Positions 32,715-59,149 of a stretch of DNA of 64,000 bases are shown piece by piece; positions within the stretch are counted from its first letter, which is position 1, and each line of letters begins with the position of its first letter. The stretch is from Watersipora subatra (Eukaryota; Bryozoa; Gymnolaemata; Cheilostomatida; Watersiporidae): assembly GCF_963576615.1 (NCBI RefSeq), contig NC_088708.1, forward strand, positions 48,223,196 to 48,287,195, read 5' to 3'. Under the pieces are notes generated by a model that was not told the DNA's origin, made no database searches, and worked only from the letters and a program-made list of their open reading frames with translations. The position numbers and the translations under genes are program-made.

Positions 32715-34262
32715 CGTTGCAGTGTTACGCAGTGATGCAGTGTTACGCAGTGATGCAGTGTTACGCAGTGATGCAGTGTTACGCAGTGATGCTGTGTTAC
32801 GCAGTGAATCAGTGTTACACAGTGATGCAGTGTTACATAGTGATGCAGTGTTACGCAGTGATGCAGTGTTACGCAGTGATGCAGTGTTACGCAGTGATGC
32901 AGTGTTACGCAGTGATGCAGTGTTACGCAGTGATGCAGTAATACACAGTGATGCAGTGTTACGCAGTGATGCAGTGTTACATAGTGATGCAGTGTTACAC
33001 AGTGATGCAGTGTTACACAGTGATGCAGTGTTACGCAGTGATGCAGTAATACACAGTGATGCAGTGTTACACAGTGATGCAGTGTTACACAGTGATGCAT
33101 TGTTACACAGTGATGCAGTAATACACAGTGATGCAGTGTTACACAGTGATGCAGTGTTACACAGTGATGCTGTGTTACGCAGTGATGCAGTGTTACGCAG
33201 TGATGCAGTGTTACGCAGTGATGCAGTGTTACGCAGTGATGCAGTGTTACGCAGTGGTGCAGTGTTACACAGTGATGCAGTAATACACAGTGATGCAGTG
33301 TTACGCAGTGATGCAGTGTTACACAGTGGTGCAGTGTTACACAGTGATACAGTAATGCACAGTGATGCAGTGTTACGCAGTGATGCAGTGTTACGCAGTG
33401 ATGCAGTGTTACGCAGTGATGCAGTGTTACGCAGTGATGCAGTGTTACACAGTGATGCATTGTTACACAGTGATGCAGTAATACACAGTGATGCAGTGTT
33501 ACACAGTGATGCAGTGTTACACAGTGATGCTGTGTTACGCAGTGATGCAGTGTTACGCAGTGATGCAGTGTTACGCAGTGATGCAGTGTTACGCAGTGAT
33601 GCAGTGTTACGCAGTGGTGCAGTGTTACACAGTGATGCAGTAATACACAGTGATGCAGTGTTACGCAGTGATGCAGTGTTACACAGTGGTGCAGTGTTAC
33701 ACAGTGATACAGTAATGCACAGTGATGCAGTGTTACGCAGTGATGCTGTGTTACGCAGTGATGCAGTGTTACGCAGTGATGCAGTGTTACACAGTGATGC
33801 AGTGTTACGCAGGGATGCAGTGTTACACAGTGATGCAGTGTTACACAGTGATGCAGTGTTGCGCAGTGATGCAGTGTTACACAGGGATGCAGTGTTACAC
33901 AGTGATGCAGTGTTACACAGTGATGCAGTAATACACAGTGATGCAGTGTTACACAGTGATGCAGTGTTACGCAGTGATGCAGTGTTACGCAGTGATGCAG
34001 TGTTACGCAGTGATGCAGTGTTACGCAGTGATGCAGTGTTACGCAGTGATGCAGTGTTACGCAGTGATGCAGTGTTACACAGTGAATCAGTGTTACACAG
34101 TGATGCAGTGTTACACAGTGAATCAGTGTTACACAGTGATGCAGTGTTACACAGTGATGCAGTGTTACACAGTGGTGCAGTGTTACACAATGATGCAGTA
34201 ATACACAGTGATGCAGTATTACACAGTGATGCAGTGTTACACAGTGATGCAGTGTTACACAG
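32715..34262. repeat. 18-bp minisatellite, about 86 units
   Basis: Tandem copies of GTTACGCAGTGATGCAGT with common variants (GTTACACAG, GTAATACACAG, GTGAATCAG, GTGGTGCAG). Because 18 is divisible by 3 and the unit has no stop in four frames, long artificial frames arise on both strands (527 codons plus, 535 minus). Within it a 360-bp higher-order unit (20 monomers) is repeated: 33072-33386 equals 33432-33746 exactly. Confidence 0.97.
33072..33746. repeat. 360-bp higher-order duplication in the 18-bp array
   Basis: Reading the array line by line, 315 bp at 33072-33386 are identical to 33432-33746, including the rare TGATGCATTG and CAGTGATACAGTAATGCAC variants. This shows a recent segmental duplication of 20 monomers. 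Confidence 0.93.
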
Positions 34263-39381: not shown

Positions 39382-42300
39382 CTGTACAAGATAAACCAGT
39401 GAATTAATGAAAAACTCTTTCGATGAAAGCGAAATATTTTTTATTTGTAAAATTATACAAGGTAAAAGTTAACATGTCTTGCAGGGGTTGACATGCCTCG
39501 CAGGTATTGACACGCCTCAGTGTTGACATGCCTCGCAGGTATAGAAGGCTGGTCTTAACTAGATTGACTGACCCTGAAGTTGACAGTTTTAAGTGTCTGA
39601 ATTTTGCTGGTAGGATTTCAGTTGTACTTACTTTTTAGTTGACCAGTTAGACACCAACCAACCAATTATGTTCAAACCTTTCTTTGAAGCTAGTTGTTTC
39701 CATAAAACTGAAAAATTACTTTTTCAGAACACATGTTACGACTAGTATATTTTCCTTATTACGCGTACTTTTACAAAAACATTCGAATTGTACTAATGTT
39801 GTACTAATGAACTTTTCTTTGTCTACAATCAGAATTTGACTTATCTTTCTGCTAAGGTTTTATGTTGCCAATTGTTTTCCAGCACTTTCTGATGTTGACA
39901 TCCATGATGCCTTTATCTGTACATTTATAGACATAAAAGTAATTGCTGTCGGTAGTCATGTGAAAGCTGTGTTAGTATTGGTACTAATTGGTACTAATTG
40001 ATGGCAGACTTGAGACATTGTCAGTTCAAGGGTCTATTGAGACATTTTATTACTGGGAATATCTTTCAGTGCGCCTGCAAAATCACGAGTATGGTAGTGT
40101 GTTACATTTAGGGTTTTGCGACACAACGGTTACTTTTTGGCAATGATCAGTTGAATTTTTCAGGGCCAACGTTCTACCATGGGCATTATGAACCCACAGG
40201 ATCGAAGTTTTAAATCGTGTCAATTTAATCTATGTCGGTTTTTTGCTGGCACGATCCTGTTCACGGTTATATTTTTATCAACCTACTGTATGGAGTTTGT
40301 GTCACTCTGACTGGTGTCGTAGCAAGTGGCTCATAGACTTGAGCTAGAGCCATACACTTGAGCTAGAGCCATAGACTTGTGCTAGAGCCATAGACTTGTG
40401 CTAGAGCTAGGTGTAAATATAAGTCTCGGCATTCGCATATAATGTGTCCAAGAAATAATCGTCATACTTACTTGTGTTGTTTTTATATGATAAGGAAAGG
40501 TCTTGTTAGCCATAGTTGGCCAGGTGAGAATCTACAAGGTTAAAGAACCAGATAATCATGCGCTGAATAAACTCTTTGACAACTAGACACTTTATATTAT
40601 TATAAAATATATTATACACATTATATTATTATATACTATACATATTATATTATTATATACTATACATTGTATATTATTATATACTATTCTATATTATACA
40701 CATTATATTATTATATACTATATTATACATATTATATTATTATATACTATACTATACACATTATATTATTATATACTATACTATATTACACCTATTATAT
40801 TATTATATATTATACTATATTATACACATTATATTATTATATACTATACTATATTACACCTATTATATTATTATATACTATACTATATTACACCTATTAT
40901 ATTATTATATACTATATTATACACATTATATTATTATATACTATACTCTATTTTACACATTATATTATTATATACTATACATATTATATTATTATATACT
41001 ATACTATATTATACACATTATATTATTATATACTATACATATTATATTATTATATACTATACTATATCATACACATCAAAATAATAGCATCATAATGTAA
41101 TGCAATTGCACATTTTTTGCTACTAACAAAAAACATAATTAAGACAAATAGAGTTACTGATATTAGCTGGAAATGATGAACCTTACCATGCTACGATTGA
41201 TCAAAGCTTGTAAATATCTTGTGAAAAGTTTGCCAAAACACAACAAACTGGATTTGGAAGAAAAGTAGACAATAAATATAATATGTTCATATGTTTATTC
41301 TCAGGAATTCAGTGGTTTAGTCATTCACTGGATATTAACTGCGAATGACATTGCAGTAACTTGGCAATGTTGTCTCCACTGCCGAGTTATGCCAATTTCT
41401 GCGAGCCCAGGGCCTCAACTAGTTGCAGTGCTACTGCGCATGTGGGCCTCATCATACCTTAATATGTAAAAATTAGGCTTTTATTTATTTTTTTATTTAA
41501 TCCACTATTTAACGGTATTTATTTTTTGCTTAATGTTATATTTTTACTAATTGTATACTGTGTTTGTGATTTGTTACATAACACTATATAGTTACAGGTA
41601 AATAGAACTACTGCTGTTAAATATATTCAATGAAATCCAATCCATAAGCTTTATCTTCCACTTCGTGAATCTAAGCCCTACAGATACTGTATTTGTTGCC
41701 AGACAGACGTGTACTTTACAATATGTACATATGAATTTTCAATTGGCTACAACCATCAAAAAGTCACATGTAATTTAATAGAAAAACATACAAGCTGTAC
41801 AAGGTTTGTGAAAAGTAATATCAAATACACTAGTACGTGACCCTGACCTACATAACTATTTATTATTGAACGAATAAAAGCTATCAATGCGACTTACTAG
41901 GAATACAAGATGGCCGAAAAACGTAACGAACAGCATGCAACCTTGAACAACCTTTTCCTTGATCCAGACTGGAATGGTGTCAATGGCTATTAGAGCAACG
42001 GTGTTTCCAAACCAAAACCTACAATATATTGAACTTTTTCATAATATATTTCTAAACAGTGTATATTATTATAACTAACACAATGACTCACCATACAGTG
42101 TATATTATAACTAACACAATGACTCACCATACAGTGCATATTATAACTAACAGAATGACTCACCATACAGTGTATAGTATAACTAACACAATGACTCACC
42201 ATACAGTGTATACTATAAGAAATGGAACGTAGAAGCTCATTTTTTCTGGAAAGTGTTTCAAAGTGAAGCCAATGCCGTAAAGAAACCAGATCCAGCTAAG

Positions 42301-45300
42301 GATCCTCACACCAATGAGTGCGTAACCTGGTAGGCTGTCATAAAGGTAGAGCACTAAGGCTGGATCAAACGACTGCAACAGAACAGTTGAAGAAGTGACA
42401 ATATGGCTCATGGTTACTTGTACTAACATTTTAGAAAGAGTTTGTCAGATAAGCACCTAAGAGATTTTTTGGATCTGATCAGCAAAACCTTGCAGTTCCT
42501 TACATTTATTACTAAAATTTATTTACATTTGTATTTTAACAATTTAGTTCACAAAATCGAATAAACAGCATAGATAGATGACATCACTTTTCATAAGAGG
42601 ATCAATATTTATGACGTATCTATTAAATTTGTTATTTCAACTCTGAATGTCTTTTCTTATAAATGCGATGCTTTTGTAGAAACAAATGATCAGCTTCTCT
42701 GGGTTTCCAGATCCTGCCGCTGCCAGAAGTGTAAATTTAGATATAGCTTTTAAATAATTAGTACGATATACATGCTTCTCGCTGATTTTAACAGCGAAGA
42801 TTGCCTCAAAAGACTGCTTGAGTAATGAAAAGAAAGAGTTCACATTAAATAAGATAAATTAGTTTCTGGTTATTCATTTCATTTTTTTTTGATTTTATCT
42901 AATCATAATGATATTGCTATCATAATAGCTGAGCAAGGTAAGGCATCAATAGAGTTGGGTGTTATGTAATAACTTGACACATAATTGACTTACGCCTAAA
43001 TAAATTAACTCCTTAAAACAAGAAGTTCACAACTGCACATTGATGAATAAAATGTAATCTTTCATGGAATTTAAAAACTAGGAAAAATAACTTTTTTGTA
43101 AAGAAGTCATCAGTACTTCGAAATAAACAGGGCACTTACCTACACAGCACTAAAAGTATTGAGAGTTACAAAAGAGCCATTTACCTACACAGAACTAAAT
43201 GTATCAAGAGTTAAAAGGGAGTCACATACCTACACAGAATTAACAGTTTTAAGAGTTACAAGGGAGTCATTTACCTACACGGAACTAAAAGTATTGAGAG
43301 TTACAACTGATTCTCTTAACAAAAATCCTCCAAACTAATAGAAATATAGAAATAGCACTAGTTTTGCTTGGCCAACTAAACACAGCATGGAGATGAATAA
43401 ACGGATCACGCAGGTCTATGTAAATCCATATTTGCTAACAGTACATCATATACATGTGTGTATGAGCGTAGTGAGGTGATTTATTTAGCTTATACCAATT
43501 TTTCAAAATCCCATCGAGTACGCTTCAATCGTATGTCAACCAAGACATGACTATAAAAACCTGTTTTTTCTTGTCAGCAAACCATCGGACTATCATCGTG
43601 TAAGCTCACGCCACGTGTGTTCAATATTCAACTAAGACAGGAAGACACAAAAAACTGATCCAACTTATACTTACCACAATCTCCCAGATTATCATGGCGA
43701 TTGTAACACAGATAAAGACAATCGAAAAGACGATGATTTTAATTGTCCCTCCGACGCTTATCCTGCCCCGAGTGATAGTGTAGCCTTTCCCCATTAGTAT
43801 GAGTAGAATTACAAATATGACTTGACTAGCGAAGTCTAGAAACCGACCTGAAACAACAACAAATCTGTTTATTAAAACTGGTAATATTCGAGCCATAGTT
43901 GTGAATATGTGAATATTCCATGTTTAAAACAATGACAAAGGACTACAATTAATTGTGTAGAAACTTGCAATACTAAAACATTTTTTTATATGACTTACAA
44001 GCTTGTTTCCATAACTGCCAAATAGACGATGTCTTGGGTACGCACAGTTAGTAGCAATTTTCAAGTTTGTAGCAGAGCTCAGACTTGAAAAGTACTCAAA
44101 TTATAGTCTACTAGCAGTTGGAGCTGAGGCTACAATCTGAGGATTAAGTAGTTCTTAAGCTAAAATTAGCTAATAGATAAACAAATGTTGTAACCATGTT
44201 TATATACTGTTTATACAGGTAGATAAGGCTGACTTCTAGTATATGTTATTGATTAATACTATGGAAAATATGCTATGAGAAATAGTGTGACAACTTCCTA
44301 ATAGTTGTGGTCACAACCATAAATAGACATTATTAGGCAGTACTTATCTTCCTCAACAACTGATACTTTTGTATTCTATTATTGCACCGAGTAAAATGGT
44401 TGATGTTCAGCTTATTATAAAATATATAAAATTAAATAATATATATTATATATATTTTATAATATATATTAAATATTATAAAGTATAAATATATATTCTT
44501 ATGTTTTATAATATATTAATATTAATTAATTTTAAAATATAAATATAGCAATACTCTTTGTCAAATATCAACAACTCTAACAAGGTACATCTGTACAACT
44601 TATAAAATGGCTTAATAGCAAAAGCTCTGGCAACAAGTGACGTTACTAAACAGAACACACCGGAAGAAAATGTCCTGAAGCAAGTTTATCAGTAATTCTG
44701 TTTTTAGTATTAACAATTGTATAAACACTTGGAGAACTGGCAAGTTTTCAGATGCAACCATCTTCAGCATTCCACTAGTATATAAAGTACGCATGGAATA
44801 TAACAAAAATATGTTAGTGTTCTTTGTGTTGGTCTGAAAACATAGCAATTAATAACAGGTACTTGAAGATCAATACATTAACTCTCTCTACATATGGGAC
44901 AAGTCTAAACTTAACCATTAACTACTATAAAAGCAACTTGTTCTGACTTGTCAAAAACCAAAAAATAATTCACTGTTTTTTCATCTACAAAACTGCTCAG
45001 TTTGTCTCCTATGTACTTTACTACTAAAGGTTGGTTCACGCTTAGCCTGTCTTGACAAACTGTTGTTTTTGCAGAGTTGTCCCCCGTCGAGCGGGCGAGC
45101 AACACAACAGCTTGTCACAAGACGTACTGCACCTGATGCATCAGCTGCACTTATAGGGAGTTGTTCTCTTCCGTCTATGCGGCTTGGTTGCTATGTTATG
45201 TCAGTAGCTCCATTGGTAATCATAGCGGATTTCGCGCACAATTTTATGTAGAAAAAAATAGGATTACAACGTTTAACCAGCGACCAGTCTCTGCGGTAAA

Positions 45301-48300
45301 CTTTAGTAGAACTTAAGAATAAAATAAATTGAAAATAAAATCCATAAGAACAAATAAAACTGACTGATACAAATATAGAAATTACACTGACTGAGCGCAC
45401 AAATAACGACATGTTTAGTCGCTGTTGTTGCCTAAATTCTCAAGTTCTACTAAAGTTTACCGCAGAGACTGGTCGCTGGTTAAACGTTGTAATCCTATTT
45501 TTTCTACATAAATTTGTGTGCGAAATCTGTTATGATTACCAATGGAGCGACCGACATAACATCGCAACCAAGCCGCATAGACGGAAGAGAACAACTCCCT
45601 TTCAGTGCAGCTGATGCATCAGGTGCAGTACGACTTGTGACAAGCTGTTGTGTTGCTCGCTCGCTCGATGGGAGACAACTTCGCAAAAACAACAGTTTGT
45701 CAAGACAGGTTAGTTCACGTTATATCGCCATATGCAGGAGTTGTGCTCTCAGCAATTATTTATCGACTATGTGCCCTGTAAACCGATTACATCGTCGAGA
45801 TAACGCAGATATGTCGGGAAAGATTGCTGATGTCAAACTTTCTTGATAGTCCACTGTGCATCTATGACAGCCTGTGCGATATGCACCACTTCGAAGATAG
45901 TGATTAGCTGTTGCCGATTGATTGATCTATACTTTCTTTCAAAACTGTTGCTGCGGGACTAGTATTTATTCATTTTCATGACTCCATGCAATGAAAACGC
46001 AATGCCGTGGACTATTCGCTGATGTGAACTCAGATGGGTTTGTGATAGTATAAACATTGTTATCAGAGAGCATCACTAAGGTTTAGTGGGATTAATGCCG
46101 ACATACTAAGATATGTAGGAGTTGTGCTCTCAGCGATTATTTACTATGATATAGTGTGAAACAGCCTTAAAGCAGCCAATTATGGATTATTTAAAGTATA
46201 ATTTGTACCCAGATTCTTCCAATTAGCAATGGGGATGCCTGAATAGCCGTAATCAACCCAATAGATTAGCTGGGCTATGAGGGCAAGGTACTCTACGCAG
46301 AGTGAAGCCAGGTACAACTTGAATGTCGTATGGTAGAGTTGGCGAATGTGCAGAGAATCTAAAATATGACTTCGTATTACTATAGACAAACTCAATTATC
46401 AATAGAGAGAATAACTCCAAATTAGAAATGAGTTTCTAGCATATCAACAGTAAGTACTAGAATACTCTGAATGCTAAGCATTTCATCAGCGGTACCAACA
46501 TTATAGGAACTCAAAAGATGCAAATTGGTAATAAAATTAAAAAAAATATTTGTTTTCATTTCAGTTTTAAGAAAATAAATGAACATTTTTGCCAAAAACT
46601 ATGTTTCATAATTTTAGTGAGTTGACGATTAGAAATTTGGTACAAGCAATGACAAATGAAATAGTCTACATGTGTGCAACCGCAATACTACACTTACATG
46701 TTAACTTGCTATAGTTGTTAATTTTTATAAACTTCTCTGTTATTTTAGATTGCTTCGTGTATACGCTAAAAACTAATGAATGTTCATTTCAACTCACCTT
46801 AATTATTATAACAAACTGTACAAAACAAACAAAAAACTATTATAGATAGTAATTAATTTCACTCACAAAAGTGGACTACTTGAAAACTGCTGGGTCTCTT
46901 GTAATGAAGTAACTACCTATATTGTATCTTTGAGTTGCTATTCAAATATTCAGATGATTTTTCTTTTTAGTATAAACAAAACTGCTAGTAAATTTTGGCA
47001 GATCCATGTTTTCTAGTTTGATTACTATGCCTTTATAAACCAGTGCTCGTCCAATACCATTATATGTAATTTTTGCTAATCAACATTCGCACCACTATGG
47101 AACTTGTATTAGTCATGCGTACCACATTTGTGAAATTTGAACAGATAGCATAATCAAAGAATATTTAATTACCACATTTATAGGAGTTGCGACATCATGA
47201 TTTGATAGAATCATAGCTAAATGCCATATTTTAGTTTAGATACTCAGAAACCTCTGTTTCCGTACTAAGCTTATACGTAAATAAATAATTATTATCTTTT
47301 ATGATGTGATTTAGATTATAAACTGTGACCAAACAACTATTATACAAATAAAAAATTGTAGCTGTCATTTTGAATTTTTATAAACAGTGGAAGTAAATAG
47401 ATAACACAGGTCCATGGAGGCACGTTGGTTACAAAAATAATTTAGTAAAAATCAGGGGAGATAACTACTCAATGTGAGAAGTGCGCCTCTAGAAGAGAAG
47501 TCAGGTACTTACATGCGACGTAGAGTGAGAGGCAGAGAAGAAACATGTAAGCTAAGAAGAAAGCTATCGTCTCCTGCAGGATGTCTGCAACACATAAAAT
47601 CTGGGTGTGCCACTCGCCATTAACCATGACAAAGGAATGCTTTGAAAATTATAAACATTACCGGTCTGTGATAATCGATTGAAAGTAATATTTATTGCAT
47701 CAATGAAAATATATACTTACAGAACTCGTCTGCAGAATAGTGCTTAAAGAAGAAATTATTCTCATCCAAATCATTGGTCATTGTTATATTGTAGTTGAGG
47801 AAGAGGCCCTGAAACAAGAACATCCGTAGTCTAGGGCACACTGTAACGGTATAAATACACAAGCGAGTTTTTGAGCATTTTGGGAGTCTTCCAGTGAGTA
47901 TGAAGGAGCCTTGCATAGCTCCACTCACTGTTGTCTAGCAGACAAACATTGGGTAACCGATCAGGTTGCGAGACTCTTGCTGAGTCTCGCAACCTGATCG
48001 GTTCATTCAAAGAAAAACCTCTCGTGTGTTTTTTTGCCAGACGGAGGCTACCTGCGCCAACCAAAAATGCTGTCAAAACATGATTGGTTGCTTGTTCATA
48101 CTTGAACGAGCTTCCCAAAGCGGAAAAATGGTCAATAAGGAGTTTTAGTAAAGATATCATACCTCTTCCGTTTTACTAAAATATTCCTAGCCTCATGCCT
48201 AAAAGAACCAGGTACAGTAGCGACTCCCCCAGGTATATTAGTACATTGTAGGATCATTTAAAGGACCCTTTGATATATGGAGATAGTAACCTTAATAGAT

Positions 48301-51300
48301 TACAACTGGCTCAAGCTATATCTATTTCTCTAAAGTTTTGCTATGGCCATTGATGTCAATTAGTTCTAATGAAGAAAATTTTAAGCTGAAACCAAAACTT
48401 TTAAAACTAATCACTGCTAAACTTTTAGCTACAAATAACTTCAGAATTCATACATTTTGACTTGTATGATCTCTTGTGATTGCATAAAAACCTGCTTCAA
48501 GTATGGAGGTATCTTCAAAGCCAAGGAATGCTATGACATATTAGTGTATGGGTCTGTCTAGGACCAGCCAATGATATTCCTTACAATCATGCGACATCTG
48601 TATGCAAAGTAAGAGCTAACATGTTTTAGTAATAACTAACTAACCTTGACATAAGCCGAGTTTATTCAAACACTGTGAACAAACATGGGTTGAGAAAGTA
48701 ATATATATGTCAGTTTCAACTAAGTTAAGACTGTAGCGTGCCAACCTAGACTCGCCTACTCAAGACTCTATACATGTACAAACAGACATAATAACCTGAG
48801 TAAACAAATAAATTTTAGTAATTTACACAATTTGAGTCGGAAAAAATGTGTCTGGTGTCTTTATAGTTGTCTAGCACTAATTCTAGCCAACCCTCTACAT
48901 ACATTGTTGCGCTATTCAAATACCTGCTTTATAAGTTATAACTGTAGTTTGCTAAAGTAGGTACTCTTATAAAAATACTGGATAAGTATTTGACTATTAA
49001 AGTAAGTCTTATTACTTACTAATTATGTAAGTTACAAGCTTTACTAAATTTTGTCTAAATAAGACAAAATTTAAGTAATTTTGTTAAACTTCTGACTTAC
49101 TTATTTAACTAGTAAGTAAAATAAGTAAGTCTTTACTTATTTTACTTACTAGTTAAATAAGTAATATAAGTAAGTCTTTACTTGTTTTACTTACTTGATA
49201 AGTCAATTTTTATTACTTAAGTAAGTCAATGTAATTGACTTACTTAATTAGTCAAATTACTTACTTAATTTGACTAATGACTAATTTTTGTGACAGCCCT
49301 ACACCTACCAGACTCTAATAAGTACTTCAAGCATGTATGTGTAGCAAGAAAACGAGTGCATTATATGAAACCACATAAAAAAGCTAAATGTAATATATCA
49401 AATTATATTTTATGAAGCTAATGTAACCAAATTAGCATCAATAAAAAATATTTTAATGTTACCTAATCAGAAAGAGACGTGAAGTATGCATACGCTCGGA
49501 GTCATAGCTAGCAACGGTTAAACTAATTGAATTTACAGCGTTTTATTATTATCGCATTTTTTTTTTATTTTACTTTGGATTTTTAATGGCATTTTCACCT
49601 TCACTCACAAAACTTTAAAATCTTGATATAAACTTTGAAGATTGTATGTTAGAAATACTCTGTGTGTACAGCCGTAGCCAGTAGTTCAAATTATAAATCG
49701 GTGTTAGAAAACTTTGTAGATGAAGTAGAGGATTAGCTGTATAAGAATGCTTGTTAGCATGTTGAATGTAACACCAATAGTCCTACTAGTCCAATAGTCC
49801 TACTAGTCCAATAGTCCTACTAGTCCAATAGTCCTACTAGTCCAATAGTCCTACTAGTCCAATAGTCCTACTAGTCCAGTAATCCTACTAGTCCAATAGT
49901 CCTACTAGTTCAATAGTCCTACTAGTCCAATAGTCCTACTAGTCCAATAGTCCTACTAGTCCAATAGTCCTACTAGTCCAATAGTCCTACTAGTCCAATA
50001 GTCCTACTAGTCCAGTAGTCCTACTAGTCCAATAGTCCTACTAGTCCAATAGTCCTACTAGTCCAATAGTCCTACTAGTTCAATAGTCCTACTAGTCCAA
50101 TAGTCCTACTAGTCCAATAGTCCTACTAGTTCAATAGTCCTACTAGTCCAATAGTCCTACTAGTCCAATAGTCCTACTAGTCCAATAGTCCTACTAGTCC
50201 AATAGTCCTACTAGTTCAATAGTCCTACTAGTCCAATAGTCCTACTAGTTCAATAGTCTTACTAGTCCAATAGTCCTACTAGTCCAATAGTCCTACTAGT
50301 TCAATAGTCCTACTAGTCCAATAGTCCTACTAGTCCAATAGTCCTACTAGTTCAATAGTCCTACTAGTCCAATAGTCCTACTAGTCCAATAGTCCTACTA
50401 GTCCAATAGTCCTACTAGTCCAATAGTCTTACTAGTCCAATAGTCCTACTAGCAAAACCAAAGAGCAATAATAAAAATGTTAAATTGATCAGGCAATAGA
50501 ATTAAGGGTCAACAGAAGTGGGTGATTAGCTAATCATGCCTAGTCATTCAGATTACACCCTACCGTGATTGGATAAACTCAAACGTATCAATATAAACAG
50601 AAATTATCTCCCTTTGGTTTCCTCTTTCCTTGGTTCCTTTTCCATGATATCGCTGAATTATTCTATGGTAGACCATATTATTAGCGTGTTAAATAGCAGT
50701 ATGAGTAACTTGTTTCTCTACATGATCATATTTTTATTTTCACGATCTTCAGCTGGTGAAATCATGGTTTTATTTTTGTTCAATTATCAGGCAACTAATA
50801 GAAGCATAACGATACCTGGGTTGTGGCGCAATTGTCGACGACGATGTACCACCATCTCTCTCTCTTGGAAGAAAAAGTTCTTCCTCCTTTACATTCATAC
50901 CAATCCTCTCCGTTGATTTGAATAATGCTGCAGCCAGACCACCGATAGCGTGTCGTTAGATTTATGACCTGGTTGTTCTCCGGCAGCAAAACAGATTCTT
51001 TCTCGTAGCATGTCTGCCAAATGACCAATTAAAGTGGAAAATCTGTTCGCTTATACGTATGTATAGAAGTTGTACATGAGTACCATTTCAAGCAGCAATT
51101 ATTGTTTAAATTTAGGCTAGTGAGTGTTATTTAAATTGATGCGTTAGATTATCCAAAGTGATGTCTGCTTGCATAACAAATCAACTATTCACAGATAAAT
51201 ATATGTTTTCATATAATAACAGCTCCAACTTATAGTTATGTACAATATAGTAGCTACATATGCCTAACATGGATAAGAAAGGAAATTAATAACTGGGAGA

Positions 51301-58119: not shown

Positions 58120-58228
58120 TTATTGTTTTTGTTCTCTCTTTTCAGCTTCCAGAAGATCTTCATCAGCTCCACTCTCCAACTCGTCTTTTTGCGAGTGGCT
58201 GCCGTCTCCTACCAACTCAAGAGGAAAC
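58120..58228 (-). CDS. SLC22-like last exon (acidic tail)
   Basis: The first base completes a Glu codon. There follow 35 residues, rich in Glu and Asp with a Lys/Arg/Gln end, then TAA. Acceptor TCTATCACAG. The phase agrees with the preceding exon. Confidence 0.82.
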
Positions 58229-58891
58229 CTGTGATAGATCGAAAAGTCAGAACATAGATAACAAGGCGAACATGTGAACATAGCATTCACCCTATAGGGC
58301 ATCAATTACTAAAGATAGAGTACATCATATTTTCATTTAATACCAGCGATGGTAACGCTTAGTGAATTTTTATATAAAAACACTCCTTACTCAGTTTTGT
58401 TAGCTTCTTTGATGAATTCAGGAAGTCTCCTTCGATTGGTCTCTGGTGGGATTAAATGAAGAAATCCTCCAATCACCATCATTATTACAAATGTTATCGG
58501 CATTATCAGCTCAATGTTTGGTACATGCAGGAATCGGTCCTGTAAAAGTTACAGCATTGTAGCAAAGGAAAATACAATAGCTATATAAATCAAATTTGTA
58601 ACGTATGAGGTTGAGAAATGTTGGCTGAAAAATAATGCTTACCATATCAAGAATAAAAGGGGCGAGTATAGCACCACCCCGGCCAACTAAAGAATTTAAG
58701 GCAGAAAGAATACATCTATGCGTTGTTGGATACAGCTCTGTCTCCCAGATAATGATAATTTGCCATGCTGCCGTGATAAACAGCTTGCCGAGCATGCTCA
58801 GACTCGTCACAGCCAATCCAGCTTCAAAGTATGAACAGCTAATGACTACAGGCTCAAGGCTAGCAAAGAATATCGATGAAGAAGTCACCTT
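58120..58891 (-). CDS. SLC22-type transporter (major facilitator superfamily), C-terminal exons only
   Basis: This is the 3' end of an organic cation/anion transporter-like membrane protein. Three exons, 58891-58643, 58539-58391 and 58228-58120, join in phase into about 168 residues. The first holds a run typical of SLC22 helices 10-11: GLAVTSLSMLGKLFITAAWQ, then ETELYPTTHR, equivalent to the family's 'ELYPT.vR', then GRGGAILAPF. The second has the last helix and PPETNRRRLPEFIKEA, equivalent to 'LPET....LP.tieEa'. The last is a short acidic tail (DELESGADEDLLEAEKREQK) with a TAA stop. Borders are GT-AG. The first eight or nine helices must lie upstream, beyond 64000, or be missing: I found no matching exon in 58900-64000. 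The substrate cannot be inferred. Confidence 0.85.
58391..58539 (-). CDS. SLC22-like exon (last helix and PPET motif)
   Basis: A 149-nt exon, phase 0 to 2, acceptor CTTTTACAG, donor GTAAGG. It encodes the last helix (LIMPITFVIMMVIGGFLHLI), followed by PPETNRRRLPEFI. Confidence 0.87.
58643..58891 (-). CDS. SLC22-like exon (helices 10-11)
   Basis: A 249-nt exon, phase 0 to 0, after acceptor CTGCCTAG and before donor GTAAGC. It carries SMLGKLFITAAWQ, TELYPT and GRGGAILAPF. The plus-strand open frame over the same bases is a shadow. Confidence 0.85.
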
Positions 58892-59149
58892 CTAGGCAGG
58901 AGGCTAGAAGTTCAAATGTTAGTAGCTGTTGCTATGGGAGACGCCCATCATGCTGTGATACATTGCTGATTTTAGTTTGACAACCACCACAGCCCTAAAA
59001 TTCTTTTGCCAATAATAAGGAATATCATTTAATTGGCATTTTACTAAAGAAATAAAGAACCAAAATAATAAAACATCATTATGGCAAACTGCACATCTTA
59101 CTGCATAATGCTCACCAGTGTACCCACACTTACATGGTTTATCTGATAC

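Follow-up and report, generated by a model that had tools for sequence, protein, structure and literature searches.

The window analysed in this study is a 64,000-nt stretch of DNA, positions 48223196-48287195 on the plus strand of contig C1. Its minus strand carries, from 55023 to 39187, a TMEM145-like gene for which 12 exons and an open frame of 502 residues were predicted from the sequence. The exon boundaries were chosen by eye for GT...AG and then joined, so the GT start and AG end found at 11 of 11 introns reflect the way in which the boundaries were picked, and the join of exons 1 and 2 (donor GTTATT) is the least certain of the model. A 343-aa stretch of the predicted protein, from exon 5 onward, matched PF10192 (GPR180-TMEM145_TM) over model positions 1-224 of 224, with 153.5 bits against a curated cut-off of 23.7 and an E value of 8.5e-45, a match that places the host gene in the GPR180/TMEM145 transmembrane family. 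Hydropathy analysis, with overlapping rows merged by hand, indicated a signal-like segment and seven more hydrophobic segments, the predicted helix 6 corresponding to residues 372-390. A search of solved structures with the predicted protein returned 2 matches at E values up to 1, the best being 0.62, and no usable relative. Upstream of the gene, at about 58150-58920 on the minus strand, exons resembling those of an SLC22-kind transporter were noticed by eye.

The part of the gene of interest here comprises exon 9 (42200-42372, minus strand, 173 nt), which ends in phase 2 within the Trp378 codon, intron 9 (42019-42199, minus strand, 181 nt when the first donor is used) and exon 10 (41898-42018, minus strand, 121 nt), which is preceded by the acceptor ATATTGTAG|G. 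These features were defined by splice-site inspection and in the joined model.

A 36-bp tandem array across the exon 9 donor

TRF identified a tandem array at 42067-42218 (152 bp) with a period of 36, 4.2 copies, 94% matches and a score of 276. Read on the minus strand, the array begins 19 nt inside exon 9, crosses the donor and occupies most of intron 9. Unit 1 (42183-42218) is part exon and part intron, with 19 nt of coding sequence followed by 17 nt of intron and the donor at 42200|42199. Units 2 (42147-42182), 3 (42111-42146) and 4 (42075-42110) are wholly intronic, hold copies of the donor at 42164|42163, 42128|42127 and 42092|42091, and differ from unit 1 at 2, 2 and 1 of 36 bases, respectively; pairwise differences among the four complete units (42218-42075) range from 1 to 3 of 36 bases. 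A fifth copy, partial and read by eye at 42056-42074, has a 3-base insertion and lacks a donor. The exon 9 junction is thus copied three more times within its own intron, and the three added units account for 108 of the 181 nt of intron 9.

The end of the exon and its donor, ACTGTATG|GTGAGT, are identical in the four units, the last exon bases being 42200, 42164, 42128 and 42092. The 14-mer ACTGTATGGTGAGT was found at exactly these four positions of the array with a spacing of 36 bp, which confirmed the original prediction of a 36-bp repeat with four donor copies. The whole 783.7-Mb genome (239 contigs) contains 8 occurrences of the 14-mer, 4 of them in the array, for a chance expectation of about 6. 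The 4 other sites show 12-15 mismatches in the 22 outer bases and are unrelated beyond the 14-mer. Chance therefore does not account for four copies spaced at exactly 36 bp.

A 511-bp stretch extending from exon 9 to exon 10 had a single match in the genome, namely itself, and the search therefore offered neither a close paralog nor another haplotype for comparison. The same result, together with the lack of any clear similarity between the array and the 4 other 14-mer sites beyond the 14-mer, led us to reject an origin of the unit from a dispersed repeat or a mobile element; this rejection is not absolute, as very common words are skipped in the DNA search. The copy number of short arrays can in general be misassembled, and a repeat collapsed or expanded during assembly would offer another account of the array; the distinct substitutions in the four units, the length of merely 152 bp and the single matching place in the assembly render such an artefact exceedingly improbable.

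Reading frame and the choice among four donors

Splicing from donor 1 carries the frame into exon 10, and the joined frame is open with this donor only. The proposal that the first donor alone is in frame was, however, incorrect. A period of 36 is divisible by 3, so donors 2-4, which add 36n bases, preserve the frame just as donor 1 does; what distinguishes the later donors is a TGA directly after Trp378. Since this stop follows Trp378 immediately, donors 2-4 would all give the same truncated product of 378 residues. The truncation that had been predicted for the later donors was accordingly upheld, with a different position: by hydropathy, the stop lies inside the predicted helix 6 and not between helices 5 and 6. 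The possible lengths of intron 9 for donors 1 to 4 are 181, 145, 109 and 73 nt, respectively. Under the established rules of nonsense-mediated decay (NMD), mRNAs with a stop ahead of downstream exons are expected to be degraded, and exons 10-12 lie downstream of the TGA; decay of mRNAs spliced from donors 2-4 would therefore be expected.

Because the 14-mer is the same at each of the four donors, the local sequence is silent on which of them wins. If the TMEM145-like gene is functional, donor 1 must serve often enough for the protein to be made, and it would presumably be the winner in cells. An RNA fold that hides the later donors was considered and rejected, as nothing unusual was seen in the predicted structure of 311 nt (z 0.09; equalled or exceeded in stability by 45 of 100 shuffles).

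The nearness of a donor to the acceptor can favour that donor, and Krainer et al. in 1990, judging by the title of their paper, reportedly described the activation of proximal sites by SF2. The most downstream donor of the array would give a compact intron of 73 nt, and its proximity, which can favour its use, counts against a neutral reading of the array. The extra donors might then compete with the first and direct a steady fraction of the transcripts to the stop in helix 6, with the copy number setting the protein dosage. Such unproductive splicing would fit with four donors identical over the 14-mer, the in-frame TGA added by every later donor, the shortness of the smallest possible intron and a human minisatellite that, by the title of a paper, reportedly provides multiple splice donors. 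It would have to operate without any unusual RNA structure to gate the sites, and amphioxus cases of similar anatomy are described, in the passages cited below, as free of splicing disturbance; we consider this explanation unlikely. A copy-number-tunable off-switch, in which the identical donors lead to the same stop and the length of the array, variable between individuals or cells, sets the amount of functional TMEM145-like protein, is very unlikely. The switchable, length-polymorphic loss of function that the original prediction gave as its second reading gained no support from the one assembly analysed, from the single genomic match of the exon 9-10 stretch or from the predicted RNA structure.

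Tandem repeats in the window and overlap with exon boundaries

The frequency of comparable arrays was estimated using twenty 10-kb loci (L011-L030, all 20 used) spread across the initial 26 Mb of C1, the flanking L009 and L010 entering no count. Merged arrays with a period of 15-80, at least 2.8 copies and a score of at least 100 were retained. This 200-kb sample contained 38 arrays that covered 7.7% of bases and is thus very repeat-rich; with the same filter, the window had arrays at 8 places (10 TRF rows), which covered 5.3% of bases. The 8 arrays of the window were rotated through all 64,000 positions relative to the gene's 22 exon boundaries. On average, 1.13 boundaries fell within an array, and 44% of the positions had one or more so placed; when just the 11 donors were counted, the corresponding values were 0.57 and 37%. 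This null is generous, since the 8 arrays include the exon 9 array and a single array of 1545 bp gives nearly half of their bases. A narrower set of 9 arrays (period 20-60, 2.2% of the window) led to expectations of 0.49 for the 22 boundaries and 0.25 for the 11 donors, and this null, like the rotation, includes the exon 9 array itself and ignores selection against such overlaps. The observed number of boundaries inside an array was 1, close to what was expected. When copies with no more than 8 mismatches in 30 were sought within 600 bp of each of the 22 exon boundaries of the TMEM145-like gene, 1 boundary had them.

The array itself is no chance string. That it covers a splice site may well be a coincidence, of a kind that could easily occur in DNA so rich in tandem repeats. 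The exon 9 array was chosen from the window for its looks and therefore carries less weight.

These results bear on whether the splice site had any part in seeding the array. A random minisatellite could have come to lie over the end of the exon, a possibility that is compatible with the rotation, in which an array covers one or more boundaries at 44% of positions, and with the C1 sample, where at least three GTRAGT on one strand occurred in 0 of 38 arrays and the reversed motif reached this number in 3 of 38. The window pointed the opposite way, with at least three GTRAGT on one strand in 3 of the 15 arrays examined and the reversed motif in 0 of 15. Two of the three GTRAGT-holding arrays are TTACTTAC-rich arrays at 49097-49269, remote from any exon. 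Enrichment of donor motifs in arrays was therefore not demonstrated in the 38 arrays of the sample and the 15 of the window, which disagree and are both small, and the counts do not separate an array seeded by the splice site from a random minisatellite. We regard a random minisatellite as a reasonable possibility, though somewhat doubtful; it overlaps with the explanation that we favour, from which it departs solely in giving the splice site no role in seeding the array, and the odds of the two are not exclusive.

Several other repeats were observed in the window. In intron 8, at 43136-43306 on the minus strand, TRF reported a 45 bp x 3.8 array in which four units contain TGTAG|GTA, so that an acceptor-like and a donor-like sequence stand back to back (AGGTR x 4). 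This array resembles a recursive or dual-specific site, and the gene model has no exon boundary there. Each strand of an 18-bp x 85.8 array at 32718-34262 has open frames that exceed 500 codons; they follow from a unit length that is a multiple of 3 and do not argue for a gene. Intron 4 of the TMEM145-like model contains a 17-bp x 39.9 array at 49774-50452 with 96% matches. In intron 7, at about 45030-45830, two stretches appear by eye to be mutual reverse complements, with the look of a foldback element.

Origin of the array and its known parallels

We consider it likely that the array is a near-neutral, mirage-type minisatellite lying over a working splice donor, the first donor giving the productive mRNA. 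It would have arisen when 36 bp lying across a functional 5' splice site were locally duplicated in tandem, through slippage or unequal exchange. The first donor would then supply productive mRNA, and the three downstream donors would be unused or would yield early-stop transcripts removed by NMD, so that the array would be effectively neutral. The original prediction had offered, as one of its readings, that the array grew from the splice site and is tolerated as the first donor works. This reading fits the sequence in that unit 1 is part coding and part intron, the later units are intronic and the frame is open with donor 1 only; the use of donor 1 in cells, on which it also depends, we infer. 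Unit 1 begins, at the upstream end of the array, with its 19 exonic nt, which code for part of the predicted helix 6; this arrangement would fit growth from the junction into the intron. The residues around this exonic part are presumably similar in human TMEM145, and this would agree with growth in the same direction.

The exon 9 array is real, mirage-type and ordinary in kind, and repeats that copy splice sites are already known. As a single case it alters little of what is known. With four identical 5' splice sites following one another in a single short intron, it offers a clean natural case for asking how the spliceosome picks among equal donors, and it suggests that other animal genomes rich in minisatellites merit a systematic search for mirage-type repeats.

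The closest known parallels are the 'mirages', repeats spanning exon-intron boundaries that were named in amphioxus Adh3 and are known there in Adh3, TnC and the globins BflGb6 and BflGb9, with similar repeats in PGBD5 (PMC3087553, PMC3902484). In the passages cited here, Adh3 is described in the globin paper as having units of 10-72 bp and somatic instability, the two haplotypes of BflGb6 as having 6 and 3 units, and splicing as regular, without sign of interference from mirages; the PGBD5 paper, which added the PGBD5 repeats, states that the Adh and TnC mirages generate no aberrant mRNAs (PMC3087553, PMC3902484). The array described here likewise spans an exon-intron boundary, as 42067-42218 crosses the predicted exon 9 donor at 42200, and its copies carry splice signals, with 4 copies of ATG|GTGAGT. 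The two are alike in having a minisatellite-like repeat over the boundary with many copies of AG/GT signals, and the unit size falls in the range given for Adh3. They differ in the gene concerned and in that length differences between haplotypes and somatic instability are reported for amphioxus, whereas the present array is seen in one assembly. The name was coined in a cephalochordate; a COX1 search of the present genome, intended as a way to its mitochondrial genes, gave 0 matches.

In human segmental-duplication genes, 27 intron modifications from repeats at exon-intron boundaries are reported, and variable internal tandem repeats, exon and intron cases taken together, average 30-bp units x 4 and 160 bp in the part of the paper cited (PMC2812944). 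This average is close to the size of the exon 9 array. In contrast, copy number there varies between paralogs and novel introns form, whereas one matching place was found here. Models of intron creation by tandem duplication or dual-specific splice sites, as outlined in the portions cited (PMC3443670, PMC4974935, PMC10809524), also involve a splice signal duplicated inside a repeat. In these models, AGGT serves a new intron both as its donor and as its acceptor, whereas the exon 9 array lengthens an existing intron and contains no AGGTR on either strand; intron gain by this route was rejected. The repeats in an earthworm metallothionein paper are, in the part consulted, intronic and so no close parallel. 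A literature search on this TMEM145-like locus found no paper, a result that weighs little as the search was made without the organism name. A search on TMEM145 and hearing yielded nothing of use.

Finally, a 1995 paper, by its title, reportedly describes a human minisatellite with multiple splice donors, and another paper cites it for minisatellites that interfere with splicing. As far as the title tells, that minisatellite resembles the exon 9 array in supplying several donors and differs from it in that its donors serve a transcript, those of the exon 9 array being putative donors recognised in sequence. From the amphioxus mirages, the human boundary repeats and the 1995 minisatellite, it follows that both the anatomy of the exon 9 array and its possible effect are in print.
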